Positions 12,890-61,926 of a DNA stretch of 64,000 nucleotides are shown here, in pieces. Source of the stretch: Imbricaverruca yamaguchii (lineage: Eukaryota; Arthropoda; Thecostraca; Neoverrucidae); assembly GCA_034440575.1 (NCBI GenBank), contig JAOTOL010001331.1, positions 343,501-407,500 on the forward strand, written 5' to 3'. The position numbers were made by a program, and so were the translations under genes. The notes beneath the pieces were generated by a model. That model worked only from the letters and a program-made list of their open reading frames with translations, searched no databases and was not told where the DNA came from. Each line of letters begins with the position of its first letter. The first letter of the stretch is position 1.

Positions 12890-14245
12890 ACAGGGATAAG
12901 TTATTTGTGAAATAGGGTGGAATATACCACTCTGAAAACCCAATCAACATCCTTGTCCAAGAAGTATTGACATCCTGATTCTTGATGCATGCTTATGTAG
13001 TCCTTGTGTTTCCTTGCACTATCAATAAGGAATGATGATACACAAACATTTTGCAATGCAATTTCAGGTGTTTATATGTGATGTGATATAGAGTATAATA
13101 CCAGTTTGTAGCATGGGTATGATTTTCTCTATCCAGAATATAGCTCTTCCTATATCATGAATCTGAAAACAACTAATAGGTACAGTCATAAATGCCTAAA
13201 CCATTTGTTTAAATTTGAGTCTGAAAGGTTTTAAAAGCATTTTAATGACACTAATTCCATGTAAAATTTTGACATCCTGCTGTGCTTGTTCCGATATGTT
13301 ACACCTAACAAAAAACAATTATTTTAATCCTGCATCCCACCCACCCTTTTTTCTGTTGTTAAAATTATTTGTCCCCTTCCAGAATTATTTGCAAGCATCA
13401 ACTCAATGTCCAGATGCATATGTCTCACACCCAAAATCCTGATTGCTTGTATTGTCACACAATACCAATCAACCTCAATGTAAACCTGTCATCCCATTCC
13501 ACAACTTATGCTAATTGAATTCAGTTCTGCACCACTTTCACAAGTCAATCAACAATACTTTCATTTAGTTTCATCCTACTTATTACTTCATTCCAATGTT
13601 CCAACACCTCACCAAGATGCAGCCAATTTGCATGGATCTAAAACAACACTAAGGGCGCTGCATGACCTCTGCAGTTGATGTGCCCCTAAACCCCAATAAC
13701 TAACTGACTAACTAAAACAACACTAAATCAGTGTCCAAAGATAACTGCTTGACTGTTGATGCCCTGACCCGAAGCATTTGGAGTTTGCCCTGTTTGCATT
13801 CTGGTGATGTCTGGTCAGAAGGTTGCCCTGGTTGCCCTGGCATCACATTGTGGTGATACCCATGGCAAGAAGTCTACAAAAGTGCATGAGGACCTGATGA
13901 ACATTAGTGATGCCTCTGGTCACCCTTTAAAAGAAGAACATGCAGAATTTTGACACAATTGTCTAGTGATGCCATTGCCCAGAATGACATCCTGGTTTCC
14001 ATGGCACAGTGAGAGATTATTTGACAAATAGGGTGTAATCTACCACTTTCCAAATGTTCAATTGACATTCTTCTGCAAGAAGTATCAACATCCTGCTCTT
14101 TGGAACCTACACCACAACCTCAAAGTTGAGTCTGGGGCATCAAAAGCTCTTTAAATGACACTAATTGTATGACAAATTTTGACATCCCACTGTGCTTGTT
14201 TGAACATCCCACACCTAATGAGGAACCATTATTTTAACCCTAGTT
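12890..14245 (+). repeat. Two diverged copies of one repeat (12890-13335, 14000-14245)
   Basis: Shared blocks in the same order: 'aaatagggtg.aat.taccact', 'caagaagtat..acatcctg', 'tttgagtctg', 'ttaatgacactaatt..atg', 'ttttgacatcc..ctgtgcttgtt' and 'aattattttaa'. Copy 1 carries about 220 bp of extra DNA in its middle. No coding capacity was seen. Confidence 0.6.
13653..13711 (+). mobile_element. Hairpin-tail retroposon, 59 bp, well preserved
   Basis: It starts exactly at GGGCGC, runs through 'tgcatgacctctgcagttga' and 'tgtgcccctaaaccccaat' to 'aactaactgactaa', and is flanked by a perfect 15-bp duplication 'ctaaaacaacactaa' (13638-13652, 13712-13726). This is the clearest copy on the plus strand. 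Confidence 0.85.
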
Positions 14246-14249
14246 CACA

Positions 14250-16440
14250 ACAACAAAACCAAGTTTTAAGTAGGCAGTAGCATGCAAAATTGCATGAAGC
14301 ACAGGACTATTATTTCAGTTTGTGTTTATGAGAACCTTACAAATGAATGAGTGGTTGCATTGACCTGTCATGAACTTGACCTGAGTTGACATTAGTGACC
14401 TAGCATGATCTTGAAACAATATAACATAATATATATAACAAAGAAGCTAGTATTGCTGTGAACACTTCTCTTGCTGATATGTTGGAAGTGCATCAGCACT
14501 GATTTTTGTGGTGTGATGATACAAAATGTTTTGACAGCCTTAAACTAAAAACAAATTTGCAGATTTGTGTTCTTGTTTTAAGCAATGCAGCAGACATTTC
14601 TAACCATGTATGCAAAGAGTGGCATATATCAACTGGTATAACCAGGAGTCATTTTTGAAGAATATGTTGGGTGGGCAGGTTTCCCCCATCTGCACAACAC
14701 ATTTTGCACACATTTGCCTCCATGATGCAGACAAAGATAGGTAGACAGACTTTGTTGAGGTCATCCACAATGGACTTGTGGCTATTATGACATCTCATGA
14801 AATAGATAAAACAACACAGCACAAAAGGTAAAAAAAGTGTGTTAAAATCACATAATAAAATAAAAATAAATGAAATACAGCAAGTTGAGCAGTCAATCAG
14901 TCTGGCACAGGTGGCACATCAAATAGGTACTCCAATAGGTGGTGACCAAAGATCGACAAAGGAAGTCATGTCAGCTCAGGTGGCAATTAGTTGTAAGTGT
15001 GTGGTGCTCTGGAACTAAAGTGCTACACATGTATAAATGAGTTTAGTTTGACTAGGATATTTTATTTTTGTGAAGACAAAAAATTATTGCAGACTTTTTC
15101 TGCAACGAGAGGTTAGTCTAGGTTAGATTTTGTTGCATTTTTATTATTTTTTAAACATTTATTTTCATACTGTTGTATGCTTTTCATTGTATATCTGAAC
15201 CAAAACAAATTTGTGTGGAGTTATCTTGCTCACAACCTGAAAAGTAAGCATTTGCACAGAAAATGAGTGGTCCTATCATCTTAGTCACCTTCATAAACTT
15301 TGTATTGGGAAGTTCAATTCCAAGCACTCATAAAACAATTGAAAGCACAAATTTACAAAAAAATTTATAGTTTTTCTTCAAGAACAGCTTAGGCTGCATA
15401 AACATTGCATTTGGAGGTTGCATCACACAAAAATGAATAGATCTTAATGCAAAGTTTACCATTTTTAAGTCTGCATTTGTTTTGTGTTTACCACAAAAAA
15501 GCCAATAGTGTATGTATGTGTGAGTGTATATGTATGAAGTAGGGGTCATAACCTCTGGCAAAATAAGTCCTGTTTTAAAAACAGCTGCAAACAATACATG
15601 CTTTTGTCCTATAATGATTTGTGCATAGCATATGTTGCCTAGCTCAAAATTTTCCTAAATGCATTTATAGTATTGTACCCTCATAGGCTAACAATACTTT
15701 TAAAAAGTGATCATCAAAATGATATTGTAGTGTTTATGGGAAGCATGAGCATTGTGCATTTTGCCCATTGAAAATATCTCCTTTCCTTGAGTACAAGGCA
15801 CACATGATCCAAAATGTGAAGTTTTTGCCATGGATGTCTCAAATTACAGTAGTGACCCCCACGCCCCCTACCTCTCACGCTTGCAAAGTATGAAAAGTGA
15901 TAGATATATGTAATGCTCATCTGCCTTAATACATGACAGATATGTCCATAGGACATGTTGTACCATGAAAACATTTTGCTTAAAACTGGTACATTTTGCT
16001 GCCTGGCTTAGTATCATATTTGATGTCATGTCATATTGTCGTATGTCATATTGTTAGTATCATATTCGATGTTGATGTCCTACTGGGGTAACATGGGACT
16101 GCCTATTCTGAGTAGAAACCAGCTGATAATGATATATAGCTTGTTTTATGAAGGTTAGCTTAAGGCTTACCTGAACATATGCCCTGCAAGTCTGAAGTGC
16201 TGCATGAGTTAGGAAACACCTGCTTCTCTTTTTCAGAATCCAGGAAAACAAATTGTAGGGCAGTGACTTGGTTTGTGAACCATAGTTTACTGTCTTGTGG
16301 TGGTGATGTAATTTTTCCTCCCCAGATGCCAATCCTTGTATTTGAGTACTTAAGGGTGAGATGCAAAGTGAGTTTGTCGAAAAGGACGTGATTTACTGAG
16401 ATGAGAAGTTGCTCTTCAAATATCATCATCTGAAAGCACT
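14250..16440. other. AT-rich non-coding stretch
   Basis: No gene, RNA or domain was seen. A diverged copy of the intronic repeat of 1.75 kb lies at about 15230-15330. The short frames have no domain and poor codon character. Confidence 0.5.
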
Positions 16441-16445
16441 GAAAT

Positions 16446-19400
16446 ATGGCACCACGAAAAAAAGAAAAAGTGCAACATGCTACATTTGCAATGCCATCCT
16501 TCGTAACGAGAAAAACTTGAGCAGACATTTCCATCCTCGCCATGCAAACGAACTTGGTTCGCTGGGCGGCAAACAAGGAAGGCGGTTGTCTCAGTATTTG
16601 TTGTTGATGTCGAAGAGAATTCGCTACAAGGCCTATACACAGGCATCAACAAAAAGCCTGCCACCTGTTGATAAGGAACAAGGGATTAGTGTGAGCGAAT
16701 CTACCAAATCAGCCATGCAAGATGTCATTCATGTGATGGAATCATCTGAATCTGATGGTCAAAAGGATGATTCATGTAATCCAGTGCATGGCGAGACGTC
16801 GCCCGAGGCGCATACATCCGGACTTGGCAAATTGCATGTAGCCGGTGTCTCGGACCGAAATTTACTTGGAAGTATTAATCCCTCACAGCATACCAATAGT
16901 CATCTGGCAGGCTATTCGACAGCCACACAGGTAGCTGATCTGGCCTTACCAAGTAGTCGCAAGGTGGGAGAAACAATTCCTCCACAGCCAGAAGTTATTG
17001 AACAACCATGTGATGCTGCTGAAGATTCTTCGACTAATCCTCGTGAGTTAATCCAGATGGTTGGCAGAACAACACAAACACAAACCAGTGATGAGGCTGC
17101 AGGAATTGGAACTATAAATTTGGATTTTTTTTGGCAAGTCTTCTGTGAATGCTAAAGATCAGATGGAAGCACATATTTCACACTTCACAGCATCCTAACA
17201 GAATTGTCGAAATTGCACACTGCTGTTAATGATCTGGGCAGCAGGCTGGCTCCCTCGGCCAGCAGGGACGCACCTACCGAAAACGAAAGCCGTGGCTGTA
17301 AATTGGATTGGGTTCTCAATAAAGATACCCTGCAGGGACCCTTTGGGTTTTGTTCTGTTTGCATGCAACAAAAATACTTTATTGCATCAAAACATGGAGC
17401 AGCAAAGGCACTTAATTGGGTTATATCTGGTGTGAAAATCACCAAACCGCATGTGTTCAAGTTTCGGTGTGTGAGACACGAGACAAGTGCTATGCATAAG
17501 GTAGCAAAGTCAAACCTTGCATTGATGAATGATTCCCAGAGACTAGACGCAAAAAGGCGGGAGCTCGACCGTTCTCTAACTAGAGATGTGCTGCGCATAG
17601 CATACTATGGGGTAATGAGAAACCATTCATACCGAGATTTTCAGCTTCTCATGCGGACATTGTTCACTTCTTTGGAGAACGGTCCAAACTTCAAGTTGAT
17701 AGAACGCAACGTTCACAGAAAAACGGCAGCTAGTGCCACAGATGTTTTCTTCAAATCATACTCTGGCATGCTGAACCATTTCCTTTGTTCAGCTAGTGTC
17801 GTCACAGGAAGAATGCGACACCTGCAATTGAGTGCAGATAAGGTGACTACAGGTAACATCACTCGACAGGTCATTAATGCCCGATTCATAGATGTGGATG
17901 GTAAACCGAAAGTGGTTAATCTCTCCATAGATGTAATCCGTAACCGTGCATCAGCTGAGGATCGAGAGCTGGGCATTCGCCACCAGTCAGATGCCATTGG
18001 CTGCTTTGAACACATCGTCAACACACTGAGTACTGTGATTCTTTCCTTGCATGATGATGACATCTCAAAGATGGTGTTGGCGTTGAGCACAGATAAAGAG
18101 GCAGTTTACGCTGGTGTGCATAGCGGCGTTGCTTCCCTTTGGAGGAAGAAATTTGGGAACAAAAAGTTTTTGCATCTAACTGATAGAGCCCACAAGGTAG
18201 AGAAGTTGCTGGATGCAGGATTGATGTGCTTTGACTGGGCGCGAGAAATGGTGAAGTCTCGTTTACCACATATTATAAATACATTCAGGAATTCTTCGAG
18301 GATGGAGCGACTGGCAAGGAGTGTGAATCCTGCCTTCAAAAAACTTCGTAACACTGTGGAAACTCGATTTTTGGAATACACATTCACCTCGCTCCAGTCC
18401 GTCATGAGTCAGCTCGGTGATATCATTATGGCAGTGGAAAATGCTGATCGTTTGCAGGCGAACGATCCATCTCGCTTGTCCACTTTACGGTACCTCTCTG
18501 ACCCAGATTTTGTGCCATCCTGCTTGGTGTTGATGTATACAATCCGGTGTGCTTTGAATATCAGCAAAAAGAGTCAAAAGATCACTATTCTGTGTGGGAT
18601 GATCGTGATGCGATCAGAGTTTCGCTGGAAGATACAGCAGCTGAAAATAAATCCCTTGACAAATGCTCTGCTTCGAAGGCATCGTTGTGAATATCACACG
18701 GGAAAATTTCAAGGTTTCGATCTGAATGAAACAAGGAGTATGGTAGCATCTCACACGCGACATAGCAGGGCATGCGATGAGACAGCCGTAATAGATTACG
18801 CGCTTGCATTTCAGAAGTCACTTGAGCGTCAGTTTGAAGTCGCGGACAGGCTCATTTCAGTGTTTGATGATTTTCTTGATGTGCATGAGGTAGAAACGAA
18901 TTTGGCCTCCGTATTTGATATCACCACATATCCACAAGACATGACTTACCTTCAAAGTTTTCAGAATCAGGAGTTTCTCGCTGTATGCGAGTATTTCAGT
19001 GATGATGGCTTATTGCATTTTCCAAAGAAGCACTGCTCAACTATGTGTGAACTAAGATATTGTGCATGTTTAGAAAATCAGTTCGTTATGTTCAAGAGCC
19101 GCGTGGTGGAGCGTATACGCTCATGCGAAAGCTGGTACATACGGCGTGGTAATGAAAAGAGCCTATGTGTAGCGAACGCTCTGGCGCATTTTCTAGTACC
19201 TGAACATAACCTACACCTGGAGATACCGGATGTAGTTGAGCTGATTGAAATTGCTTTGCTCTTGTCCCATTCACAATCGGATACAGAGAGAACCGGGAAA
19301 GTTTTGAAAGAAACATCTGAAGTACGCTTTTCTGGAAAATTTCATGATTGAAACCAGAGAGTCGGGATCGTTGTGCGAAAGAGATGTTCGTCAAATCTTT

Positions 19401-20154
19401 TGGGGTTCCAATAAACGAAGCTCCACTAGATGTGTTTCACCGGGTTTGGCTAAAAGAACACAGAGGGGTTTTGACACAGAAGCCGAAGCGAGCTTCAGGT
19501 TACATGAAACGTTTGACAAAATCACTCGTGCGCTTTGTAAAGTGTTCTGAGTTCGACGAATGCCTTCTGCAAATTAAACGAAGCATGTTCGAGGATGGTC
19601 ACCCTGAGGATGACTTGTCGCCTGAAGCCACACCTGCGCATTCTCTGACTAGAAGTGGTGACATATCCGATGCGGACGCGTCCACGTATTCAGACATTGA
19701 AACGTTGCCTAATAGTGGAACCATTTTACAGCGACAGAGCAAACAATTAAAGTTGGACAAATACTTTAAGAAGGTTGGAGATGCCTTTCTTCATGATGCA
19801 TCGTCTCAAGAGTCTTGTGAGTCTGTTACAGAAAATGTTCCGGTTTTCGGGTACGATGCATCGTCTGGAAACTCACAAATTGCACATAGTACGTCGAGCC
19901 CACAGCATAGCATTGCTGAATCGGTTGTTCGACCTTCAAAGCAGATGAAGTTAACATCATTAGTCAATGATTCAACAACAGACAACTGCTCGCTGGATCT
20001 TTATGTCTTTAGTTTCAATATGTCCCCAACAGACTTCCCGCAGTCAACTGGTGCACATGCTCTTTTCCGGTATCGCATAGCAATGAATGCATCACCAGCT
20101 ACGGTTCACTCGACGGTTGTAGCTGGAATATTATGTCGTCTTAATTTACAATGA
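16446..20154 (+). pseudogene. hAT-like transposase with N-terminal zinc finger, decayed
   Basis: Reading from the ATG at 16446 (MAPRKK) there is a one-base slip in an A-run, then a C2H2-type finger (CYICNA...HFHPRH), a Ser/Thr-rich linker, a stop at 17153 bracketed by two compensating slips, then about 715 codons to 19351. That section shows a Cys-rich segment (FCSVC), a catalytic-type D (LSADKVTT), a second D (LSTDKEAVYAGV) with DRAHKVEKL, and a C-terminal dimerisation-like motif (SHSQSDTERTGKVLKETSE). A further slip near 19350 leads into an acidic, serine-rich tail ending at 20154. The order matches KIAA1586-like/hAT transposases, which cut and paste with an RNase H-like fold. At least four frame lesions mean it is inactive unless sequencing errors explain them. 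Terminal repeats were not found. Confidence 0.62.
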
Positions 20155-20428: not shown

Positions 20429-20485
20429 GTTAGTTAGTTATTAGGGCTTAAGGGCGCATCGACTACATTGGTCATGTAGCGCCCA
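20429..20485 (-). mobile_element. Hairpin-tail retroposon, 57 bp, perfect duplication
   Basis: On the minus strand it reads TGGGCGCTACATGACCAATG then TAGTCGATGCGCCC and a TAACTAACTAAC tail. It is flanked by a perfect 14-bp duplication 'ttcagtgctgggta' (20415-20428, 20486-20499). The inner arms CTACAT/ATGTAG pair as well as the outer GGGCGC/GCGCCC. Confidence 0.88.
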
Positions 20486-20731
20486 TTCAGTGCTGGGTAT
20501 TCATTCTTCAGTACTTCTACGCGCCCCAGGAAAACACTGGTGAACGAGTCGCGATCTAGCCGTCTTGCTCATCGGTAGCACAGCCAGCACCCACATGGCG
20601 TCCAACGAGGAACGGCAGCGATGGGCAAATGGAAACACAACGTGGAAAGCGGTGGTGAGCGACAATATAATGGACGGGCGTCGGCGCCGGTAGTGACAGG
20701 TCACGGTCGATCTCCACGTGTCCGTCCATCG

Positions 20732-21077
20732 CGACGGCCGGCCACAGCCGCACCACCTCACGACGGCCGGCCACAGCCGCACCACCTCGTAACGGCCGGC
20801 CACAGCCGCACCACATCGCGACGGCCGGCCACAGTCGCACCACCTCGTAACGGCCGGCCACAGCCGCACCACATCGTAACGGCCGGCCACAGCCGCACCA
20901 CATCGTAACGGCCGGCCACAGCCGCACCACCTCGTGACGGCCGGCCATAGCCGCACCACATCGTAACGGCCGGCCACAGCCGCACCACATCGCGACGGCC
21001 GGCCACAGCCGCACCACATCGCGACGGCCGGCCACAGCCGCACCACATCGCGACGGCCGGCAGCAGCCGCACCACCA
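20732..21077 (+). repeat. 29-bp GC-rich minisatellite, about 12 copies
   Basis: Unit 'gacggccggccacagccgca' + 'ccacatcgc' with small variation at its edge ('atcgcg', 'atcgta', 'ctcgtg'). Every unit contains GGCCGGCC. Frames cross it on both strands only because the array lacks stops. Confidence 0.9.
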
Positions 21078-21079
21078 GC

Positions 21080-23600
21080 TATACCACTTGGCGCCTCCCA
21101 TCTCCAAGCTCTCCGTTCTGGTGGCGCCCTAATGGTGTGGCGAGCGTGCTGTGCGGGATCGTGAATCATGCAATGGCATGCAGTTCCCGTTCCGCTGAAC
21201 GCCGTCACTGCGCCACTCCGTCTCGTTCATCTTCGGCACCTGGTCCACAGGGCTCTAGTCCCGCATGCTGAAGGAGTCCATGCTGGCCCCCTGCCGAAGA
21301 ACGTTGGGTCAGCGGAACTCGCGCTGGAAATGAGCCTGCACGGCACCCCGGGGCAGGCTCAGGTCGGGCGGGCACGGGCCGGCCGGACTAGGTCCATTAG
21401 ACCAGGCCTGTATCAATAGAGTAGCGCAGCTCCTCGCGGATATGGGTACATAAAAGCGTGGCGAGTTGAACCATGCTATCCAAGTGCTGAAAATCGTTAT
21501 GTTCGGCTCCCCTGCCCTACGAAGAAAGGCGCTTTCATCACGCATATTACGTGCTGACTATATTGAGTTTTAACGTCGGTTAGCGGGTTCGAATCACCAA
21601 AAAAAAAAAAAAATGGGCTCCAGTGCACTCCGACTCCAGTCGACATGCCCTCCGACTCCAAACCCTGGAAGTAAGTTTCCCACTCTGCTGGTGAGTGGGA
21701 AGTGGAAATAATCAGATCCGTGCTGGGTTAGGTATGTGAACTGCAAAGCACTGACTTTTATTTGCATCAATTTGCTATTTTAGCACTTCAATATTACTTT
21801 ACTTTACCATCTGTGGTTGAGCCACATTTTTATGCCGTATGGTTATATATAAGCAAATTTGAAGCAAATGGGAAGCAAATTTGATAGCAAATTACCACAG
21901 AAAAAAAGGGAACATCTTGTCTAGGAAAAGCACAGAACAAAAATATACACAAATTCAACCCAACATGACCAAGGATGAAATAATTCAGGCCACTCAAAAT
22001 GCACCTTTGAAGCAACACACGGTCCACCAACAATCCAATCGGTCTGATGGCATTCCAGCAGGCCATAAAGTTCAGAAGGTAAATCTGGATGAATTTGTAA
22101 TCAGAACTACTAGGAGTGGAGCAGCCAAAGGAGCTAGGGGTCGAGGAAGGGATGCAAACAGTGATCAGTGATAGACACATATGCTTTCCCCATGAAATGG
22201 AACATAAAACTGGTGGATGGACTTATGAGTGTGTAATTAACTTAGGCATCAACCTACCCATGAACTGGATGGCACGTTCTGATCTGAAGCATTCCATGCT
22301 GATTATTGAGTCACAGCAGCTTTTGTGGAAGAAGTTTAGACTCACAAGCAATGAATTATTCCAAAGACACCCTTGGCCATACTCCCATTCATACTGCCAT
22401 TGTGCTATTGGTATGATGTGGGTTTATGGGAGTGAATGTGTGTGCTTGAAGTATGAAACCTGAAATGGTTTGCTTCCATGAAGCTCTTTAAACCTGTGGC
22501 ATCAGGGGTGCCAGTGCAATACTCCTGAGCACATTGTCAAATTATGGAGGACCAAACATCTGAGAGATGATGGTCAAACAAACAACAAATGCTTAGTGGT
22601 GCCCACTGGGCAAGCTTTGTCACATATAGGTACATGTTGTACCTGCCTGCCAAAGCTGGGTGCTTCCAATCTGAGCAGGCTTGTAATGGAGTTATGGATG
22701 TGCCATCTGTGTTCTGTATTTTATTGAGGTATTATTTGTATGCTTGTTTTCCTTTTGGGAAGTTGTATGCACACATCTTTGGTCGATGCATACAAAATTG
22801 AACCATTCCAGAGTATGATATGTGGAAATATTTCTCATAATTTGTGTGTGACTCACCTTACCCCTTTCACCTGGTTGCACCTAAATTTAGCTATATCTTC
22901 AATGGTATCAATAGATCAGCTGATATAAAATGAATCTAAATTAATGATGCCTTTGACTTGTTTTCTAAATGCCCACTGGACATCTCTTCTGTTTTTTTTT
23001 CTTCTCATTAATGTGCTATACAGGGCCTGCCATATCTTGGTGCCTGCATGAATGCCCAGTTGCCATGTGCTATACAGGGTTTATAGGCCACTACCCACCC
23101 TGGAACTACTTGATAACCATGAATGGTTGTGAGTACACGTTTGTTTACCGGGTAAGAGGCGGCCATGATTTTTGGTAGTGAGCTTAGATACTGTGTAGCA
23201 ATTACATTGACAATATAAGTTTTATATTGAAATAAAAAATATAATACTTGTTTAATCATCAATATTCCCACTAAATAAGTTTATTATAATCTAGCTGCAG
23301 TACATCACTGCATATTCTAACTTTTTTTTAGATATTATTTAACTTAATTATCATGCAAGCAGCAGCTGATGCAATTATTTTGATATGTTAGTACAATATA
23401 TATATTCATATGTTTAGGTATCCATCTGTTCTTGGTGAATAAATGAGAAAAAAATGTACCAATCCGTTTTGGGTATAGTACTAATTTATATGTAGATTAA
23501 TTAAATATACTGAATTAGCAGAATTTCTGTTCTGGCATCCCTGATTTTTTGGGTCCCCACGGACAGGACACGTTCTTGTCTGAAGTTGGATGGTGGTTTG
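21080..23600. other. Unassigned non-coding stretch
   Basis: A GC-rich start (to about 21.4 kb) gives way to AT-rich DNA. 'ggttcgaatcacc' followed by 14-15 A residues near 21588-21613 resembles a tRNA B box plus poly(A), but no A box is visible. A near duplication of 'tgtgctatacaggg' lies at about 23011 and 23067. No gene is supported. Confidence 0.4.
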
Positions 23601-23612: not shown

Positions 23613-26600
23613 GTGCTAGGTATTATTGGCATGGATATACTGCAAATTGAAGGGAACCAAGATAATTTAGGAAGATACTCACAAGACGAGTTTCGGGAAG
23701 ACTTCTCAGATCATATTATGGCTAATTGTAACTACACAGTTCCAAACTCTCTGTGTTTGGAGTGGGGAGGGGGTTTTTCTATAATACATTTGAATGCTAG
23801 ATCCATTAAGAATACATTTGATGATATACAAGTTTTCCTAGCTACCACTGGTATCAAATAGTCAGTGATATGCATATCTGAAACTTGACTGAAGTTTCAG
23901 ATATGCATACTGAAAAATACTTTGAAATTAATGACTACACCATGTTTGCATCTAGTGGTTGTTACAGGGAGGGTGGGGGTTCAGCAATATATGTTTGCAA
24001 TTCCTATGTAGCAAAATGCATGAATATTATTGAAAGCAACCTCGTTGAAGCCTCATTTGTTGAAGTAAGCCTTGAAAATGAAAACAAACATAAATCCATA
24101 ATAATTTGCCAGATGTACCATCCCCCATGTTCCTCACACAGTGATTTCCATAGCATGTTTGATGGATTATTAGACAGCCTAGAAAGCAAAGGAAAACTTA
24201 CTATCGTAACAGGAGACTTCAACTATAACTTACTGAACATCAGAAATGATAGAAACAGTAAAGCCTTCCTAAACTTGCTCACATCTTATGGATTTTGGCC
24301 TACCATAACAAAGGCCACTAGTATACATAGTTTTGGTTTGACATTGCTCGACGATATATTTATAAATAACCTTTCCTATATCTGCTCTTCTGGGATATTG
24401 CTTGAGTACTTATCGGATCATCTTCCCATTTTCATGACTAACTTTAGATAAAAACCAAACTTCAACAAAAGGTCATATAACAGCATTTGATTACAGTGAG
24501 GTGGGTAAACTAAATGATTATTTGGCATTGGCATTGCACAATTATGATAACAACACTGATGCTAATATTGCATGCTCTCAGCTGATTGAAGCATATATAC
24601 ATGGCATGAAGCTTTGCACTAAAACATTTTCCCACAGTAGAAGGAGAACTCCTATAAAACCTTGGATTACTGCAGGAATATTGTGCTCCATAAACAAACA
24701 AAAATAAATTGTACAAGAGGTACATACAAAATCAAAGCATACAAAATGAATTGGAATATATACAGTATAGAAACATTCTAGTTCATATTTTGAGAGATAC
24801 AAAAAAAAAACTATTATCAAACAGCATTAGGTTGCAATCGGCAGGATGGACATAAAACATGGAAAATCCTAAATGAACTGATCAATAGGAAAACAGCCAG
24901 GTTAAAACTTCCTGATATGTTAGTAGATGAAGATGCCAATGAATATGACAGGAATTGTGTACCTAATGCATTTAATACTTCCGTTGTCTCTGTTGGAGAG
25001 AGATTGGAACAAAAGATAGATTTGATAGAAAAAGATCCAATTGAATATATAGCTGAACCTACCTATGCAAGGTTTTCTGATCATATAAGTACTAGTGAAA
25101 TTCAAGTAGAATCAATTATTAAGAACATGAAATCTGTTGGAGGTGGCATAGATGGAATCAGCACAAAAATATTAATGCTTACCTATTAAAGTATCTTGAA
25201 GCAGATTACCCACCTCTTTAATCTTTGTCTGCATGGTGGAATATTTCCTGATGATTTAAAGAAAGCAGTTGTTGTACCTGTTTTCAAGGCAGGAGAACAT
25301 CACAAATTCACAAATTATAGACCTATATCTTTACTCCCTATCTTTTCTAAAATTTGGGAAAAAATATTGCATGCATATATTTCAGCATATTTGGAACAAA
25401 ATAATGTACTAAGCCCTTTCCAATTTGGCTTCAGAAAAAACCATAGTACATACATGCCCATTATGCATTTATATAATGAAATAACCAAGTCCATAGAAAA
25501 TACAGAAATTGTTTGTGGTTTATACCTTGATTTGAAAGAGGCCTTTGACACAGTTAGCACAGATATACTAGTCAGAAAATTACAATTCATTGGACTTCAA
25601 GGACCCCTTCTTAGAATACTAAAATCATACCTTAGAAATAGATATCAGCAAACTAAAGTACATGAGACTCTATCTGAACCAGAATTAATTTCTATGGGTG
25701 TTCCTCAGGGTTCCATTCTGGGGCCATTATTATTTATCATATATATATATAAAAGACTTGCCCAGAATTTTGAATGAAGTAAATATGTACCTTTTTGCTG
25801 ATGACACAGCAATTATTGTTAAGGCAAAAAGTATAGATGAATTACAAAATAAAATGAATTGCATTGTTCCAGAACTAACACAATGGTTCCAAGCAAATAG
25901 GATGTCACTGAATGTAGGGAAGACAAATTACCAAATATATTCTGGAACTCCCATTAATGACATAAATATAATGATCAACTCCGTTAAAGTGAAAAGAAAG
26001 CAACAAGTCAAGTATCTTGGCATGGTGTTGGATGAAAAATTAACGTCGTATGGGCACATCGATTATATTACATCCATCATTAGTAGAAACTTGGGTATTA
26101 TGGGGAGGGCAAAATACTTCATAACAAGTTGTGAACTTAAGTATTGATACAACTCTTTAATCCTTCCCTATTTAAATTACTGCACTGTGATTTGGGGTAA
26201 TAATTATCCCACTAGACTAAACCAAGTCATTAAATACCAGAAACGTGCCTGGCGAATTATTGATTACAGATGTGATACATACCCTACAAATGAATTATTT
26301 ATTAAGTACAATATTTTGAAATTCACCGACATGGTGCAAGAACAAAACATATTAATTCTGCACAAATTTGTCAATGACGCATTGCCACATGCTATGACTA
26401 ACTTTTTTTCGATATACAACACCTAGTACAAGAATCATTCAACATTTCTCTATACCATTTACATATCGACAATATAGGCTATATGCTATTACTCACTCTG
26501 CTCCAAAATCATGGAACAATGTAATATGCAAAATCTTTCCCAGTATTCAGCAAGTACCAAGGAAAAAAGATGTGCTAAAGAAAAGCATTAGACGTCACTT

Positions 26601-26631
26601 TATGGAATTACATAAATCAAAGGAAAACTGA
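23613..26631 (+). pseudogene. CR1/Jockey-type LINE ORF2, decayed
   Basis: The endonuclease domain starts with FSIIHLNARSI, followed by SVICISET and TGDFNYNLL (a typical APE catalytic block). The reverse transcriptase domain has NYRPISLLPIFSKIWEKI, QFGFRKNHST, LDLKEAFDTV, GVPQGSILGPLLF and LFADDTAII (catalytic DD). The C-terminal part (LNYCTVIWGN, QKRAWRII) continues to a stop at 26629. In life it would nick target DNA and copy its RNA there. At least six frame changes or stops interrupt it, for example near 23862, 24452, 25190, 25740 and 26148, so this copy is dead. The 3' end lies soon after 26.7 kb; no tail repeat was identified. Confidence 0.8.
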
Positions 26632-26639
26632 AGTCAGAC

Positions 26640-28010
26640 TATAGCTCATACAATTCCCAAAGGTAGCTTTAAAGGTTGCACCCTGCTAGATTTGGTATCA
26701 GTGTTGATATATGAAAATGTACAAATGTATGTGATTGATTGAACTTTTTGTGTTTCTTTTGTGTCGAAGGATATTGGTAGGCTGGTACACACCTATCTTA
26801 TTCTGCACGAGACATCTCCATATAAATCTGTTTTCAACATTTCTGTACTCCCCTAACATTTTCATCTTGTGACCCTGGGAACTCTGTGGGAATTACTAGC
26901 TTGCTATCAGTCCGCGGATTTCCCAGGGTCGCATTTCCTTTCTACTAATTGGTGGTGGTCTATCTGCAAAATGAAAAGAAAAGAAAAACAGATGGGATGC
27001 AAATTATATTTAGCTAAACACATCAGTTTGCATTGTTATTTGTATCCCGGGGCACCCTTGTGTTAGCTGCCTTGATCTATGGGCAGCTCACCAAGGAATG
27101 CCACACATTGAAAGATCCAATGAAGGTGCATACAGCCAAAGGAGATAGGCTGCTGCCGCATCTGATATGGGGGACGACAATTGGGGAAGAAAAAAAAAGC
27201 ACCTACCTAGGTAGGTAGTTACCTATCTAGCCTACCTATGTAGATACCTACCTACCTAAAATGAGAATTGATTGATCAGTGCATGCTTAAATCAAGATGA
27301 AATCCTGCAAAATATATTGATGCTACCAGCATTCCAGTTGGTGGCACATCTTTTGAAAGGTTGATGAAAAATGATTACATGATTCAAGGAATATCCACCT
27401 AGCTACCTACCTAAGTACCTACCAATGTAGAATTTGGAGAAATATTTTAAATTGAATTCAGAATTTGGTATTGGATGGGGTGTTTAGTATTCTTGTGTCT
27501 ATGCTTGTAGTATCACAGGAATATGGTGGTTTTAGTTTCCATCTCTGTAAACTCAATTAAAACAAAATTATCATTGTGAATTCCGACATATTAGGTTTCC
27601 CCATATTTGGAAACTCTTACCTATGTCATCACTGCACTCAAATCAATGTTAGTGTGAAGTAAAGAAAAATTGTGTGTTGCATATCTTCATTTTGATATAG
27701 TGTCATCTTATTAGTTACATTGGTTTGGTTCTCGATGAAAGAAAACTCAGTTGAAGTATGGTATTAACATGTTTAAAGGCAGCATCAATGTGTTGGATAT
27801 TTCTCTGATTAAAGTGGGCTAATATGTTGTTTTATTCACATCTGTTATGTTGTAATCTTGTATTTACTCACAAAATGCATTGTGTACTGCAGCAGCTGGG
27901 TCAAGTGGGTGGTGTGATTCTTTTCCTTGTATCAAGCAACAATAGGCAATGTTGCAGCTGCAATTTACTATCCTGTTTAGTTGCTTTAGATCCTTCCATG
28001 CCATTATTTG
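26640..28010. other. AT-rich non-coding stretch with CCTACCTA repeats
   Basis: CCTACCTA/TAGGTAGG tetranucleotide runs in both orientations occur at about 27200-27260 and 27395-27425, making short inverted repeats. No gene was seen. Confidence 0.5.
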
Positions 28011-28885
28011 CTCCAATTAGAAATACAGGGAAGCGTTTTAAGTGTAGCATTATTTGCTGTCGCTATTAATGATGTGGCTACATCACTGCCCACCTCCGTA
28101 GGCAAAGCGCTATTTGTAGATGATTTCGCCGTATGGTGTTCTTCGCGCTCTGTTCGCACAGTGGAGAGACAACTCCAGCTGGCTGTCCGGAATGTTCAGG
28201 GTTGGTGTGATGAAACGGGCTTTGTTATGTCCACGTCTAAAACCATCGCTGTGCACTTCTGCCGCAGGCGCTGGTGCACCGACCCCATTATTATGCTCAA
28301 TGGGTACCATATTCCCATTCAAGCCTGCTGTCAAGTTCCTAGGTATATGGATGGACCGCCGACTAACGTACAACACCCACATCAAAGATCTTGCGCAGAA
28401 ATGCACTAAGAGGCTGCAGGTGATGAGGACTGTCTCCAGGTGCTCGTATGGAGCAGACAAAAGTGTTTTGCTTCTTATGTACCGTCGCTCGTACGCTGTA
28501 TAATCGACTATGGATGTTTTATATATGATGGGGCGTGCATTACAACGAAACGCCGTCTGGACGTAATCCACAATACAGCCCTTCGTATTGCCACTGGAGC
28601 TTTCCGTACTTCACCGGGTAGTAGCTTAATGGCCGAGACTGATGAACTTCCTCTTGCGTTACGCCGTACACTACTGGGAGCGAGATACTCATGTAAGGTC
28701 GCACAGAACCGGAAGCACCCAGCATACAAATGGATACTTTCAAGGCCTTCGCCGCCACTCCGTCCAGTCAGTAATCAGCGTGTCCTACCTTTTTCTGGAC
28801 GCATGGCCCCGAGATTTCGTAAGTGCAACATCAAACCGGGTTCTGTGGCACGCGCTGTCACTCCGAGTCTCCCCCCTTGGCAGGT

Positions 28886-29880
28886 TTATTTATTTATTTA
28901 TTTATTTAACAATACATGCCCTCCACGTGCAGTGGCTATTACGGACAGTCTGGGTCACAGATATTTACAAAGAAAGGATAGATTTGTGGTCAGTAGTGGG
29001 AGCAGATGCGCAACAACATTCGTACACCAACATAATACAATACCCATATCACTCTCTGCACTACAAACACCGTGCTTGCAATACTAGCTATAAACGAGTG
29101 GTTTGTAGAAGTGATAGGAAAGCGATTTGCCACCCCTGGCGCCGCGCCTGCCCCGGCGTGTGTTCTTGGTGGGCGTTGTCACGGCGACGGCGACGCTCCC
29201 CTCGTCTGGTTTTCTCACTTGGGAGGGGTGTCGACTGGCGGGGGCGTCCAAGGTCGAGGCTTTGATGACGTCACAGTGATGCGGGCGCTCGACGTCGCGG
29301 CCCTGTTCGGCTGCGTGCACGTTGATTATGGGGGGACGTGATGGTATTTGGCCAAGGCGATGGTTAGCAGATCCGTATGTATGGTAGAGCTGAAGATGGA
29401 AACCTGGTAGACCTGAAGCTAGACGATAGGAGGTAGACGATCACTGTCGTTGAAGACACAGGAATTCCGAGCGGCACCAGTCGTCAGTGAGATAATTTCC
29501 TTCTCAGCCGCAGTGCAGGAAAGAAGACGGGCAGTAGCTGATGCTTGATGGAAGGGAAGTCACTATGGAGAAAGACGCTGTCGCTTCTGCACTCACTCAG
29601 TTTTTCCGGCGTCCATTCACTGCTCTGTAAAATAGTAGAGTAATAACCAGCAGAAAGGTCCACTGAGTCCAGCCACTTCGCACACGTGTAGCGTATAAGT
29701 ACGCCGGTTTTGTTCAATGGTTCACTTTTTCTTCCTTTTTTTCCTCGTGCACTGTTCACTTGTTCTGTTCACTTCTCACTCACACCTTGCAGTTTCACAC
29801 ACCTTGCATACAGAGGCAACAAAGAGGGAAAGGGAAAAGGTTGGGCGAGCGGCCGAGACGCGTCTGCTCGCGGCGCCGCG
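28886..29880 (-). mobile_element. About 1-kb insertion with a TTTA tail inside the I-clade LINE
   Basis: The LINE protein reads up to '...SLPPWQV' at 28884 and resumes with 'NPDKPCSVLL' at about 29895. Between them is foreign sequence that begins with five to six TTTA repeats, which would be the (TAAA)n tail of a retroposon on the minus strand. The interior is CpG-rich and non-coding. No target-site duplication was clear. Confidence 0.5.
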
Positions 29881-30887
29881 CTCAAGCCAACTCCCAATCC
29901 AGACAAACCTTGCTCTGTCCTGCTAAAAGAAGGGTAGTGTCAATCCTGAAGAATTCCGCATGTTGGCGTTGGAGAAAATACACCAGTACCGTGAATTCTC
30001 TCGCATATACACAGACGGCTCCAAGTCTGCGTCGGGAGTAGGATGCGCGTGCGTCGGTCGACGCGGTATTGGATACTTCCGCTTACCGAGGCAGGCCTCG
30101 ATTTTTACTGCTGAACTATACGCCATTATGCAAGCTCATTATTTTATACAGGATGACCAGTCCACAAATCACGTGGTTTTTACTGACTCCTTAAGCAGTC
30201 TGCTGGCAATGAAGTCTTTCAACCCAGATAACAGGCTTGTCCAACGGATTCTCCGCATCGTCAAATACCAAACTGTTCTCGACAAAAATATCGTATTCTG
30301 CTGGATCCCTAGTCATGTTGGATTTGCTGGAAATAAAGCTGCCGATATGGCCGCCAAGCACGCTACCAGTAATGGCCGTGAAATTCTCTCGCATATACTT
30401 CTTCCGACAAGAGATATATCCCTCCATTTTATCACATAAACGATCTGAAGGACAATGAGCCTGGAATTCCAAGCCCAGTAAACTGAGAGTAATAAAACCA
30501 GAACTAGGATTATGGCAGTCCTCACACCAGACCTCGCGACGAGAGGAAGTGACGCTTTGTCGATTAAGGATAGGGCATGCCTTCGCGACACACAGCTATA
30601 TGCTGGCCGGTGATGACCGACCTTTGTGCCCACGGTGTTCTGACCCGCTTATCGTTTATCATGTTTTAATAGGCTGTTTATCATTAGAACCTCTACGACA
30701 CCAGATTTTAGGACGTGTAAACAGAGACACTGCGTATGCTGCTAAAGGATGATTCTGAGGTCGTGTCGTCTGGGGACATTTTTCCCTTCCTTCGACAAGC
30801 AAATTTTGATGTTATCTATCGCCGTCCCTGAATATTTTATCTTGCTGCCTACTGTAGGAGCATAGTAGTTAGCCTGTAAACACAGTT

Positions 30888-30937
30888 ATGGGCGCAAAAT
30901 GACCATAGCAGTCGACGCGCCCCTAAACCCCAATTCA
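30888..30937 (+). promoter_or_regulatory. 3'-terminal hairpin and tail of the I-clade LINE
   Basis: GGGCGC (30896-30901) pairs with GCGCCC (30921-30926), followed by 'ctaaaccccaatt'. In stringent-type LINEs such a 3' structure is what the reverse transcriptase recognises. The same structure ends the SINE at 35.6 kb and forms the whole of the tiny retroposons. Confidence 0.7.
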
Positions 30938-31009
30938 TCATCCACTTAGAACATTCAAGATATGGATTAGAAATGTATATCACATGTCATTTAATATTGA
31001 TAAAAATTG

Positions 31010-35165: not shown

Positions 35166-35991
35166 CAAAATTGGTACACATGCAGTACTGGATGAACTGA
35201 TCATCATGACTATAAAAGCTAAGCAGGGCGCCCTTAAACAGCTGAGATATTCCAGGTAAAACGTCTGGGTCATTCAGGTCGTGAACTCCTCATAATTCCT
35301 TCAACATGGGCACAAATGTACTCTTGAATGCATTGATGACCATGAGCATAAAACCTGAAGGGACGTTCATGAAAGCAAAATTATGTGTATCAAAACCTCT
35401 CCTGGAAAAATTATCCTGTACCAAGGCAGCGATTCAAAACACAAAGCTTTTCTTTTTTAACTTGCACGTCAAGTTATATTGATATTCGATCCCTACATGT
35501 GGAACATCGTGGAAACGAGCATGCTGGTGGACCTCGGTACACTGATTATCGTGAGCACAATCAAGAAGCCGCATTGCTGGTTGGTTATAGGTTTTACGAC
35601 ACATCGACCGTTGAGTCATGTAGCGTCGCCAATCTCTCACGCCGATTGGTCGCGGGCGAAGAGTAGTGACAGGTGAGACTCGAACCCACAACCTTTCGAT
35701 TGTGAGACGAGTAACTTACCCCTAGGCCACTCGTCCCCAAGAAGAAGCCGCATTGCAAAACATCACTGGGATATTCATGGTCAAAGGTCAAAGGTCATCG
35801 AGATTTCCTTCGAAATTAGCAGATGGGTAGTACTCGATACACCAATTACATGAGCATACAAGCTAAGAGGAGCATTCACGATCAGCTGAGATATGTAATG
35901 TCAAAGGTTAGAGTTATTGAGGTTGGATTCTTCAGATTCCGTTAAAAATTGGTGGAATAGTCATAATTGATGCACGGATCATCATGAACAC
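35166..35991 (+). repeat. Diverged satellite, block 1
   Basis: Monomers of roughly 115-170 bp share the theme 'gatcatcatgagcataaaag', 'ctaagaggggcgttcataaa', 'cagctgagttattcaaggtc', 'agggtcattgaggtcggact' and 'atttccttcaaaattggcac'. The block includes 'ggtcaaaggtcaaaggtca' at 35779-35797 and is split by the SINE at 35578-35741. Confidence 0.7.
35578..35741 (-). mobile_element. tRNA-derived SINE with LINE-type hairpin tail (164 bp)
   Basis: It is flanked by a perfect 15-bp duplication 'aagaagccgcattgc' (35563-35577, 35742-35756). On the minus strand the head is tRNA-like: A box near TGGCCTAGGGGTA, B box GGTTCGAGTCT, and a good T arm (GTGGG TTCGAGT CTCAC), but the anticodon arm does not fold, so it is not a functional tRNA. 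The 3' end reads 'cgctacatgactcaacggtc' then 'gatgtg' and 'taaaacctataaccaacca', aligning to the hairpin and tail of the I-clade LINE. It would be transcribed by Pol III from its own boxes and copied by the LINE's enzyme. Confidence 0.8.
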
Positions 35992-43398: not shown

Positions 43399-43399
43399 C

Positions 43400-44095
43400 G
43401 TCCTGGTCATCATCTAAGTACCAGTTAAGAGGGGCGTTCATAAATAGCTGGGCTATTTGAGTCGGGATTTCTTCATACATTCTCGGTGCAGATATGATGG
43501 ACAGCGATGCAAACTAAAAAAATATGGAAGTAAGGTTATGTTGCTTTTTGAGTATTGCGCGTGGATCATAGAGCATGATACTCTAATCATGATGAACACC
43601 ATATATAATCGTACTACAATACGCAGCGAAGATATGCTGGGTTAAAGTACAAGTGTCACCGTCGTCGGACTACTCAGATTTCGTTAAAATTGACATGCAG
43701 ATACTCCTCCATATCCTGATAAAGGCACATAATACACATAAAGACTAAGAAGAGTGCTCATAAATAGCCGTTAACAGACGCCAAAGGCCAGGGTCACGGA
43801 AATCGGAGTGCTCATATTTCCTTAAAACACACAGGTAGATCTTGATGTGCTGATCGCATGAGCATGGAACCAAAGAGTTCATAAACACATGAGTCATTCA
43901 AAGTCAAATGACAGGGTCAGACTACCCAGATTTCCTTAAAAATTGGCACGCAGGTGGCCTTTGACGCGCTAACCAGCATGACCCTACACGCTAAGAGGGA
44001 CGTTCATAAGCAGCCGTGTTAGTTAGTTATTTGGGCTTTAGGGCGCTTCGAACAGAATTGATAATTCACACCCAAGCTGAGTTATTCAGTCAAAA
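43400..44095 (+). repeat. Diverged satellite, block 4
   Basis: It has the same monomer theme ('gaggggcgttcataaatagc', 'cagggtcacggaaatcggag', 'agatttccttaaaaattggc') with the CATAAA landmarks about 110-130 bp apart at 43.76, 43.87 and 44.00 kb. A hairpin-tail retroposon lies in its last monomer. Confidence 0.65.
44019..44070 (-). mobile_element. Hairpin-tail retroposon, diverged
   Basis: 'ttagttagttatttgggctt' + 'tagggcgcttcgaacag' is the tail and one hairpin arm on the minus strand; the other arm is decayed. It splits the satellite phrase 'cataagcag...ctgagttattcag', so the insertion point is clear even though the duplication is worn. Confidence 0.6.
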
Positions 44096-50207: not shown

Positions 50208-50249
50208 CACGTTTTGGTTGAAGCGCCCCTACACTCAAATAACTAACTA
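50208..50249 (+). mobile_element. Hairpin-tail retroposon, 42 bp, perfect duplication
   Basis: 'gaagcgcccctacactcaaa' + 'taactaacta' (3' half of the hairpin plus tail) is flanked by a perfect 14-bp duplication 'accactgaagcagt' (50194-50207, 50250-50263). Confidence 0.82.
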
Positions 50250-52554: not shown

Positions 52555-52607
52555 GGGCGCAAAATGACCCTAGATGTCGACGCACCCTTAAACTCCAATC
52601 CACCACC
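52555..52607 (+). mobile_element. Hairpin-tail retroposon, 53 bp
   Basis: It starts at GGGCGC and runs 'aaaatgaccctagatgtcga' to 'cgcacccttaaactccaatc'. It is flanked by 'aaggaggaagtgtg' (52541-52554) and 'aaggaggaagtatg' (52608-52621). The 5' end lies exactly at the hairpin base. Confidence 0.85.
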
Positions 52608-56653: not shown

Positions 56654-59600
56654 TCATTGCTTGATCATTCCAGTTATCGGTAGCTCCTCTAAACCCTCAA
56701 CGAACTTCATGCAAACAAAACCAATATCTGGACTATTGGAAGGAGTTTCAGTCAGGTCTGTATCTTGCACTACCAAGATGATATTTCCTGTCATCTGGTT
56801 AGTTATTTTGGCTTTAGGGCGCATCGACCATGTTTATCATATAGCGCCCATTTTCCTATCATCAGTCAGCAGCCCAGAACTGCAGAAAACCTTGCGTTCA
56901 GCATATGCATGGAATACAATGTTTATAATGTATATAATGTACAGAAGCACCTAATATTGCACCAGCTCAATCTAAGCCAACACAATGGTGGGACAACCGT
57001 CAATTTGTCACATGTTGATTTCTGTAACACCGGAAATCTCCAACAACAATGTCATCCAAATCTGTTTCATGGTTTCTGATACATGGTTTCTGATACATGA
57101 GCACAGGGATACACAAAGGATCAATATACGTTACTACCTAAGCAATTAGGTAGCAGGACCTACCTATACTATGTGACAGGAGAGCCGACAAATAATTTGT
57201 TTTGGGTCATTTAGGTCAACATGGGATTTTCGATAGAGTAGAAATGGAGCACATAGAAAGACAATTCGCATAGGGCGCGAGCATAACCGATTTCGTAGAT
57301 GAGGTATGAGCTAGGATGAGAAGCGATAGTTCCTGTCACACATCGCACGGAACTACAATCGCGTACAGCTGTGGCCATGCCTATTCTCTTCTATCCTAAG
57401 ACAGGTCTGCAAGCCTGTATGCCACCTCTCATCAGCCACGTATGCCACCATGCAATCACATGCACCATTACGACCAGATACCTTAATGATTCCGCCATGT
57501 TCTTTGCAAATAGACAGAAGCTCCTTGAGATAGCTATTCAATTTGTCAGGTTGTTGACTATACGATGCATTACATTTTATGCACCACCACACGGCATGCG
57601 ATGTGGTGGTATGCTCTGTCCTCGGACGTAATACGCCACGTGCCAATCTAAGTCATCACAGATGACAGTGGGCCGCTTGTTGACTGTTTAGTAAGCTTAC
57701 GTTAGTTTCATTTGCATGCATATTTTGTATACGACAAAGGAACATAATCCCACCTTGCGATGCTGAGCGACGTTTCTGTACTTTGAAGAACAGTGGTACT
57801 TGGTGCCTTCTGCTCCTCATTTTGGCCCCCTAGCGCCTGGAAGAAAAGAAGTGACTGATGTTATATTTGCAGGAAACTCCATTTACACTTGACAATCACA
57901 TCTAGCTATTACCAAACAGGATAATACCACGTGTGTAACATACGCATTCGTGTAAGTCAATGCTACGATACGACGCATGCAACACATAACACAACAATAA
58001 TGGTACGCAATATTGGTCGGACACTACAACTTTGGACGAACCACCATAGGAAAAAACTTGGTTAAATTAAATGATGACTGCATTACGCAGGTATGAACGG
58101 CGTACCTTCTTCGTCAGCTCATCCCCCTTCAAGTCGTCTCCTCCATCGTCGCCTCATCCCGGAAAAAGCAGACGGCTCAAGCCCTGCAGGCATTTCATGA
58201 TAAATCAGCATGGACAATGCACTGATACGTTTCATTCTGCCGATCGGATTTTAAATATTTTAGAGGAGGAATTCCTACAACACCGAGCGGAGGCTCCTGT
58301 CACAAAATGGCTCTGGGGGAACAACCGACAAATATGCTGCGTAACAGCATAACTTTGTTTGAATACTACAGCCGACCAATCACTCAAAACAATTGCAAAT
58401 CAACAAAAAAATTCGCATTACATACCACCATCAACACTGCGTACTCACGTTTGCTAGGATCCGATCTGACGGTTCAGTGGAACGGACTGAAAGGACAAAA
58501 ATTGTGGATAATAGGATAGCAGCATAACAATGGTATGTGAGTTGGTTTTGTGACATCACTTGGTCCGACAAAAAAAAATTATGCTAGTCAGTGTGACAGG
58601 TTAAATTGACCAAGTTAAAGGCACAACTTACAAAACCATTTTACCCATACAAGCCCTTTTTCAGAATGGTAGACGAGCTAAGCATGCATGGTGAAAACCC
58701 ACCCACCTACTAATGTGTTAAGAAATAGACAATAGAAGCAGCAAAGAGTCATCAGTATTATCGAAAACCATTCACGGGACCGATATGGCAACGGCTCTCA
58801 AAATTTCATAACGCCATCAATGTATGGCATCCAGCGTTACAAAGCCAAACGAAGTCAGCAGTTCTACATACCATCACGGTGGGATAATTATGTGATTACG
58901 GACTGGGGACAATCACAGTTGCAGGATGAAGTCTTACAAACTGGCACGATAAGGGAAGCAAATACGGAGCAAAGACATCTCAGTTGATTGTTTAAATTCA
59001 AATACCTTTAAGGCAGACTTACCCTTTGCGAAAAGAATCCTTTTCAAAGACTCCTTCGTCAGATCCTTTAGTGGCACCCATAGTGGCCAGCTTTAACATA
59101 AAACAGAAGGTAGTTAGAACATATAGGAAAGAGGTCCAAACGATAATTTAAAACGTTGACTACATGCGTGGAACGAAGTTTACTATTCGGATTTCAAGTT
59201 GACGACGAAAAGATATTGACTATTCGGATTTCAAGTTGACGACGAAAAGATATTGACTATCTCGAAGAGAACTTCAAGGCAAAGATCATCTGACCTGATT
59301 ACGAGCCGAAGCTGTGTAAGCTAGCACGATGACAACGCCAGCATCGTAAAATAGCAGGAAGCGAAAACGGAACCAAACATCAAAATTTAGTTTTATTTGT
59401 ACATGTCTAAGTCTGCCCACTTGACCAACTTACATAGTCAATTACTGATGAACTTTATGATAGGGCTGCTGGCTTAGATAACATATTGCGGATAATGCAC
59501 ATACAAACACTGTCACCAATTGCAGTAAACCAATATATCAAGAAGTGAATGTCATTCGCTCAGCTCCCAGAGTAATTCCAGGTCGAAGTCCATTCTAAAA

Positions 59601-60715: not shown

Positions 60716-60717
60716 CC

Positions 60718-61220: not shown

Positions 61221-61275
61221 TCATTGGTTATTGTAGTATATGGGCTCATTGACTGCATGGGTCATATAGCGCCTA
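61221..61275 (-). mobile_element. Hairpin-tail retroposon, 55 bp, diverged
   Basis: Minus strand: 'taggcgctatatgacccatg' + 'cagtcaatgagccc'. It is flanked by 'tgcttctttaact' (61208-61220) and 'tgcttcttcgact' (61276-61288). Confidence 0.75.
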
Positions 61276-61299
61276 TGCTTCTTCGACTCCAGTAAACAT

Positions 61300-61560
61300 T
61301 TTGTTTCCTTGATCAGCCATGAAGGGTGTTTAAACTCGTTTATTATCATTTACATTTTGGGAATGAGCCTATTCAGTTCTAGAAACAGTTTGTCTTTTCC
61401 AATTCTCAACATTTCACAAGCATCCAAACCCATCCAAAACTCGTCCCAATGAATTTGATACAGGTAGATCTTGAACTCATAGTCCCCTCTAGGTTTTATT
61501 CTTCTCTGGTGACCTAAAGAATGCCCCAATCTATAGTCTTATTTCATTCTCTAAGATAAT
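61300..61560. other. Unassigned AT-rich stretch
   Basis: Nothing recognised. Confidence 0.4.
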
Positions 61561-61599
61561 ATTTAAACATGAAGTTTGTACTCCTATGTCTAAGGGTAA

Positions 61600-61868
61600 A
61601 ATTAGGAAGGAAGAACAGCCAGCAAGAATAAAGGTACAAAGAAGTAGAACAGCACAATAGTTGAAAATAACAAAGAAGAAACAAATACCAGTAAAAAAAG
61701 AATACAAGCTAAAAAGAATATAAATAAAAAGCATCAGTGGAAACATAAAAGTGCACAAGAATAAAAGTAAAAACAATACGTCAAAGTTGAAAAATACGTC
61801 AAAAGCATGAGTAAAAATAGGAAGTATGAAACAAACAAGTTGGGAAGAAATACATCGAAAGAATAGAA
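61600..61868 (+). repeat. A-rich 16-bp minisatellite, block 1
   Basis: Degenerate units around 'aaaaagaataaaagcc'. The minus strand gives frames full of Phe, Leu, Ile and Tyr that look like membrane proteins but follow from the repeat. Confidence 0.7.
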
Positions 61869-61926
61869 TGGTTGGTTATTGAAGTTTAGGGGCGCGTTGA
61901 CTGCGTCGGTCATGCAGCGCCCATTT
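61869..61926 (-). mobile_element. Hairpin-tail retroposon, 58 bp, perfect duplication
   Basis: Minus strand: AAATGGGCGCTGCATGACCG, ACGCAGTCAACGCGCCCCTA, 'aacttcaataaccaacca'. It is flanked by a perfect 12-bp duplication 'gaaagaatagaa' (61857-61868, 61927-61938). It inserted into the A-rich array. Confidence 0.88.

Follow-up and report, generated by a model that had tools for sequence, protein, structure and literature searches.

Short hairpin inserts of 53–59 bp in Imbricaverruca yamaguchii as apparent solo 3′ tails of an RNase H LINE and a tRNA-headed SINE

A stretch of 64,000 nucleotides of Imbricaverruca yamaguchii (contig JAOTOL010001331.1, positions 343,501 to 407,500; here called the window, with positions counted from its first letter) contains very short inserts that consist of a hairpin with the outer arms GGGCGC and GCGCCC and a short repeat tail, most of them between target-site duplications (TSDs). 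This raises the question of how retroposons of such a size are moved and why so many of them have nearly the same length. A preliminary description of eleven copies considered them an independent, hairpin-only family, generated either because reverse transcription stops at the hairpin base or because a short hairpin RNA is itself the template. Judged from its sequence, the hairpin element is instead the 3′ tail of a long interspersed element (LINE) with an RNase H domain, and it is also carried by a short interspersed element (SINE). Because the same hairpin and tail end both the LINE remnant and the SINE, the short copies are most simply regarded as solo 3′ tails moved by the LINE machinery.

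All eleven copies of the preliminary description, with their common core, are indeed present at their positions in the window, and nhmmer with a 60-base consensus recovered each of them (E 2.8e-13 to 0.02). Two further copies had been missed: one at 30886, which is the twelfth nhmmer match, and one at 35580, which was found by blastn only (E 0.006). A covariance model made from the 13 copies and run without filters returned the same 13 at E ≤ 2.2e-7 (each of them a row of the model itself), while the following match had E 1.5; the window thus holds 13 tails in 64 kb. A 24-base core with at most three mismatches occurs five times in the window and not once in 100 shuffles. No Rfam family reached its gathering score in the window, which looks eukaryotic, with several LINE remnants (with reverse transcriptase (RT) or endonuclease domains) and the remnant of a DNA transposon. 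In viral contigs, three pattern scans gave 0 matches, and a scan for RNase H gave seven pattern matches of which none was confirmed. Six bacterial loci in genome contigs matched the model over the hairpin alone (12.3 to 28.1 bits) and never over the tail; they were rejected as chance matches, the sequence having been inspected for one of the six (L001) only.

The copies and the elements that carry them are listed below. Insert length is the distance between the duplications (for the copy at 44022, listed as 44019 in the preliminary description, the neighbouring repeat units were also used), and 5′ ends are given relative to the first G of GGGCGC.

1246..1298, plus strand: solo tail, diverged copy, 53 bp with its 5′ end at +1 if the TSD is GAATTAGG(T/C)A(G/A)C, a weak TSD; with the exact 8 nt only, it would be 57 bp with its 5′ end at −3.
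1402..1431, plus strand: cut-down tail of ~30 bp, with its 5′ end within the 3′ arm of the hairpin and an approximate, A-rich TSD.
6147..6206, plus strand: hairpin tail copy with no recognisable TSD and no assigned 5′ end.
13653..13711, plus strand: solo tail of 59 bp, starting exactly at GGGCGC (0), with a perfect 15-bp TSD, CTAAAACAACACTAA.
20429..20485, minus strand: solo tail of 57 bp, with a single T ahead of GGGCGC (−1) and a perfect 14-bp TSD, TACCCAGCACTGAA.
27990..30949, plus strand: decayed LINE with an RT fragment, RNase H, C-terminal-like pieces and a 3′ untranslated region (UTR), frameshifted and possibly interrupted.
30886..30949, plus strand: the hairpin and tail of the other copies, here at the 3′ end of this LINE remnant.
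35578..35741, minus strand: tRNA-headed SINE of 164 bp with a perfect 15-bp TSD, GCAATGCGGCTTCTT.
44022..44074, minus strand: solo tail of 53 bp, with a single T ahead of the hairpin (−1) and a weak, imperfect 10-bp TSD, AGCCGTGTTA/AGCTGAGTTA; it lies within a repeat unit.
50208..50248, plus strand: cut-down tail of 41 bp, with its 5′ end within the hairpin and a perfect 15-bp TSD, AACCACTGAAGCAGT.
52555..52607, plus strand: solo tail of 53 bp, starting exactly at GGGCGC (0), with a 14-bp TSD with one mismatch.
56796..56851, minus strand: solo tail of 56 bp, with a 12-bp TSD with one mismatch and its 5′ end at −2, which is ambiguous (A run).
61221..61275, minus strand: solo tail of 55 bp, with a weak TSD of ~13 bp with two mismatches and its 5′ end at −1; with the exact 8-nt repeat only, it would be 60 bp.
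61869..61926, minus strand: solo tail of 58 bp, with a perfect 12-bp TSD, TTCTATTCTTTC, and its 5′ end at −4 (AAAT ahead of GGGCGC).

The copy at 30886 (TTATGGGCGCAAAATGACCATAGCAGTCGACGCGCCCCTAAACCCCAATTCATCATC) identifies the probable parent. Its hairpin and CCCCTAAACCCCAAT tail lie 3′ of the remnants of an RT (27990–28409; PF00078, E 1.9e-8) and an RNase H (29927–30439; PF00075, E 9.5e-10), from where the frames run on as pieces resembling a LINE C-terminus to a stop at 30829–30831, ~60 bases before the hairpin. Our reading of the translation suggests that all LINE pieces from 27990 to 30949 belong to one element, although the piece at 30492–30749 gave nothing above the cut-off against Pfam. 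The RNase H that follows the RT would make this LINE I-group-like, a group that comprises I, Nimb, Ingi and allies; 19 relatives of this domain were found, a horseshoe crab and a mosquito among them. The tail is, therefore, located at the 3′ end of an RT-bearing LINE, the coding part of which is frameshifted, and it is shared with a partner SINE at 35578–35741. On the minus strand this SINE shows a tRNA-like head (35667–35735; 28.8 bits with the Rfam tRNA model, slightly below its cut-off of 29; E 0.00032 for the 301 bases searched), a short body and the hairpin tail (35578–35630), which scores 52.1 bits with the covariance model, in the building of which this row was used. A LINE and a SINE with a common 3′ stem-loop form the arrangement described for stringent LINEs in passages of PMC3747384 and PMC4176376.

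Closest to the LINE tail is the solo tail at 52555, with 86% identity; both carry AAAATGACC, which the other solo tails lack; its 5′ boundary is the same as in these other solo tails despite the different tail type. The others are nearest to each other, in a comparison over 45 columns only. Since the same hairpin and tail end an RNase H LINE and a tRNA-headed SINE and one solo copy is nearest to the LINE, the idea of an independent family is not upheld. No small-RNA-derived head was found on the solo tails, in agreement with the preliminary description: ARAGORN detected no tRNA in the window and Rfam none at the gathering score, while A- and B-box patterns were not searched. Two other LINEs are present in the window. 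One (36013–38775, plus strand), with domains for endonuclease and RT, has a 3′ end of another type (CAATAAACAGTCTGAGTCTGAATCTGAG), the last 75 bases having no other match in the window; the other is a remnant (23882–26960, plus strand) with endonuclease and RT, where the covariance model finds no hairpin tail of this type.

TSDs in combination with a 3′ repeat tail, as expected for target-primed retroposons, were scored for nine of the eleven listed copies, the same number as previously claimed, and for the SINE. The scores are 15 (13653 and 50208), 14 (20429), 12 (61869), 11 (52555), 9 (1402 and 56796) and 8 (1246 and 61221), and the four TSDs previously described as perfect are all perfect. 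Of 386 random flank pairs, 4 scored at least 9 and 22 at least 8. A stricter control with a fixed location (5000 trials), which takes in the simple repeats of the window, reached a score of 8 in 152 trials, 9.5 in 96, 11.5 in 55 and 12 in 52; the abundance of simple repeats in the window accounts for such high chance scores. With the location fixed, 1246 scores 8, 61221 scores 8.5 and 44022 scores 5 (reached in 606 of 5000 trials), and since this control often matches such scores, the boundaries of these three copies are weak individually. The copy at 44022 has only its imperfect 10-nt repeat, which ranked fourth in a wide search; a score of 7 was obtained elsewhere. By eye, its flanks match neighbouring repeat units that lack the insert. 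This dispersed repeat unit (GGGGCGTTCATAAACAGCTGAGTTATTCAG) has ten diverged matches (≤9 mismatches) between 35225 and 44026, one of which is interrupted by the solo tail at 44022. When the search was widened to 600 bp upstream, 56796 and 1402 each scored higher farther up (11.5 versus 9.5). For 56796 the far TSD at −475 would imply an insert of ~530 bp; it was rejected and the near TSD kept, because these 475 bases gave no match at E 10 to either remnant, LINE or SINE, and because 10 of 200 random sites reached 11.5 in the wide search.

The lengths and 5′ ends of the inserts also agree well with the preliminary description. Eight of the 13 copies are solo tails of 53–59 bp with 5′ ends within 6 nt (−4 to +1), and two others (50208 and 1402) end within the hairpin. 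Clustering was tested on these 10 copies, leaving out the LINE, the SINE and 6147. By a scan statistic, 8 of 10 ends within 6 nt arose in 89 of 200,000 trials (0.0004) under uniform lengths of 25–60 nt, a null that is kind to chance, and in 0 of 200,000 under 25–150 nt. With all 13 copies as the sample (8 of 13), the figures are 1371 of 200,000 and none, respectively. No solo insert of 60–160 bp was assigned in the window, although 6147 has no assigned 5′ end, and of nine upstream flanks compared with the SINE body and the LINE 3′ UTR, none was similar to either (best E 0.13). An excess of 5′ ends at this point thus has good support where long-range truncation is the alternative, and less support where truncation is limited to the final 60 bases.

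In the hairpin, the outer stem GGGCGC/GCGCCC is paired in ~84.7–86% of cells, and double changes occur in two of its pairs. For the inner arms the preliminary description proposed CTACAT/ATGTAG, which is paired in 58% of cells with double changes in three pairs, whereas an alternative pairing, GAC/GTC, is paired in 80% of cells without double changes. Minimum-energy folds, calculated for 10 of the 13 copies, place GAC/GTC within the outer stem in eight; that of 13653 has the pair first proposed, and that of 44022 has another. Both inner pairings together were equalled in 1 of 500 shuffles, yet a slide by −2 columns is nearly equal (0.154 versus 0.177), and the 13 rows are related. A pseudoknot of the two (11–13/24–26 and 16–18/27–29) was considered and rejected: because the −2 slide scores nearly as well and the loop lengths look unfavourable, we treat the inner pairings as alternatives. 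The z-scores of the folds (10 copies) range from −2.67 to −0.12, so that for several decayed copies folding is no stronger than for shuffled sequence.

How, then, would tails alone be inserted? In our preferred reading, for which we see about an even chance, the hairpin and CTAAACCCCAATAACTAAC represent the 3′ recognition tail of an I-group-like LINE and a tRNA-derived SINE, and the solo tails stem mostly from trimmed RNAs. As in better-studied LINEs, the LINE protein would bind the hairpin and start target-primed reverse transcription within the short repeats of the tail, and the copies of 53–59 bp would be insertions of the tail alone. For most of these, the template would be LINE or SINE RNA that had already lost its 5′ part as far as the hairpin, where protein protects it, and the enzyme would run off a template ending at the 5′ base of the hairpin; the copies of 41 and 30 bp may be a minority in which the enzyme failed within it. 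In zebrafish LINEs, according to PMC4176376, the 3′ stem-loop is a binding site of the ORF2 protein, and retrotransposition cannot proceed without this stem-loop. The earlier proposal of reverse transcription halting at the hairpin base calls for caution. Because the enzyme enters from the 3′ tail and encounters the 3′ arm before the 5′ arm, simple blocking predicts ends on the 3′ side of the hairpin, as in 1402 and 50208. Where the end lies at the 5′ base, the enzyme must have copied the whole hairpin before it reached the end of its template or was released. We favour trimmed templates since the ends are closely grouped and are seen with more than one type of tail (52555 versus the others); a shortened template is what we infer, just as release of the enzyme would be. 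That the solo tails form a discrete class throughout the genome, copied from ~55-nt fragments of LINE or SINE RNAs degraded to the protein-bound hairpin, seems to us possible but rather doubtful.

Several observations weigh against trimmed templates or against the clustering itself. The sample is one window with 13 copies, and only five of the eight boundaries at the hairpin base are firm, three being weak (1246, 44022 and 61221). When only the five firmer and the two cut-down copies are considered (5 of 7), the clustering arises in 6919 of 200,000 trials under 25–60 nt (55 of 200,000 under 25–150 nt). Covariation in the outer stem is no better than in shuffles (40 of 500), and the folding energies of 61221 (z −0.70) and 6147 (z −0.12) are ordinary. 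Furthermore, at three of the eight 5′ junctions 1–2 nt are shared with the AAAT that precedes the hairpin, and one insert (61869) includes AAAT.

These overlaps and the AAAT within an insert favour a template that continues upstream, as it would if the template were full length and a hairpin-anchored enzyme, after melting and copying the hairpin, lost its anchor and dissociated at most a few bases from the 5′ base. This would result in the same clustering of 5′ ends, and according to part of PMC4176376 LINE proteins do bind a 3′ stem-loop. However, the 164-bp SINE and the LINE in the window got past the hairpin base, and a structural roadblock is expected to halt the enzyme on the 3′ side, so that we consider this explanation only a tentative possibility. 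It is improbable that the solo tails are an independent, non-autonomous family derived from a ~55-nt hairpin RNA, the product of a discrete gene for a short RNA or of a master locus. The uniform insert length would fit this suggestion, which the preliminary description itself made, but 52555 is nearest to the LINE itself while the others are nearest to each other (over these 45 columns), there is no tRNA-like head, and no common sequence is found upstream of nine copies. Still less probable, and in our opinion very unlikely, is that the LINE or SINE underwent no more than ordinary, random 5′ truncation, with the uniformity due to small-sample luck, detection limits and weak boundaries. Strong 5′ truncation is common in LINEs, and the two ends within the hairpin, the three weak boundaries and the 5-of-7 result would fit it, whereas the 8-of-10 clustering and the lack of an assigned insert of 60–160 bp (6147 aside) do not.

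In several respects, the tails with a trimmed template as their proposed source resemble known systems. Like the stringent-type tails of UnaL2, ZfL2-1 and ZfL2-2 (L2 clade), as portrayed in sections of PMC4176376 and PMC3747384, they have a 3′ stem-loop, short repeats and a tail common to LINE and SINE. Recognition by the LINE protein, reported in the same sections for the known cases, is proposed here by analogy. In contrast to the L2-clade stringent LINEs, the LINE described here carries RNase H (I-group-like), and unlike in stringent-type tails, tail-only insertions account for 10 of 13 copies in this window, 8 of them starting at the hairpin base and 2 inside it. The element at 35578–35741 has the tRNA-like head, short body, LINE tail and TSD of a tRNA-derived SINE, whereas the solo tails lack head and body. 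With 5′-truncated LINE copies the solo tails share an intact 3′ end, a TSD and the loss of the 5′ part, but in such copies the 5′ ends are spread, while here they cluster at one structural point. Exonuclease-resistant RNA structures leave trimmed 3′ fragments and, as an analogy only, would give 5′ ends a few bases upstream of the structure, as here in the DNA. Among the titles and abstract openings that literature searches listed, none concerned tail-only retroposons of such size, which indicates their absence from the literature only weakly. We regard the uniform solo tails as a real oddity, but one of a known kind, the LINE/SINE 3′ tail.

The remainder of the window contains a DDE_Tnp_4 transposase remnant (4465–5677, minus strand) with a weak HTH_Tnp_4 match, and long open frames of 251, 731 and 268 amino acids at 16400–20154 (plus strand), the first with a match to a GAGA-factor-like zinc finger and the second with no Pfam match and three relatives. 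A direct repeat of 300 bp (7471–7770 and 9774–10073) is 100% identical over a distance of 2303 bp. Arrays of mostly 16-base period occur at 39429–40009 and 62484–63998, with two different sequences, and a 29-base tandem array at 20669–21161.

Should the peak at the hairpin base prove to be genome-wide, these inserts would provide a natural record, at base resolution, of template ends or of enzyme release. The passage of a LINE from recognition of its 3′ hairpin to processive copying would then become testable from sequence, and it would seem likely that solo LINE tails are among the short repeats now filed as unknown. If, moreover, the class copied from trimmed fragments is real, its members would be the smallest possible target-primed retroposons and a DNA footprint of the LINE protein on its RNA.

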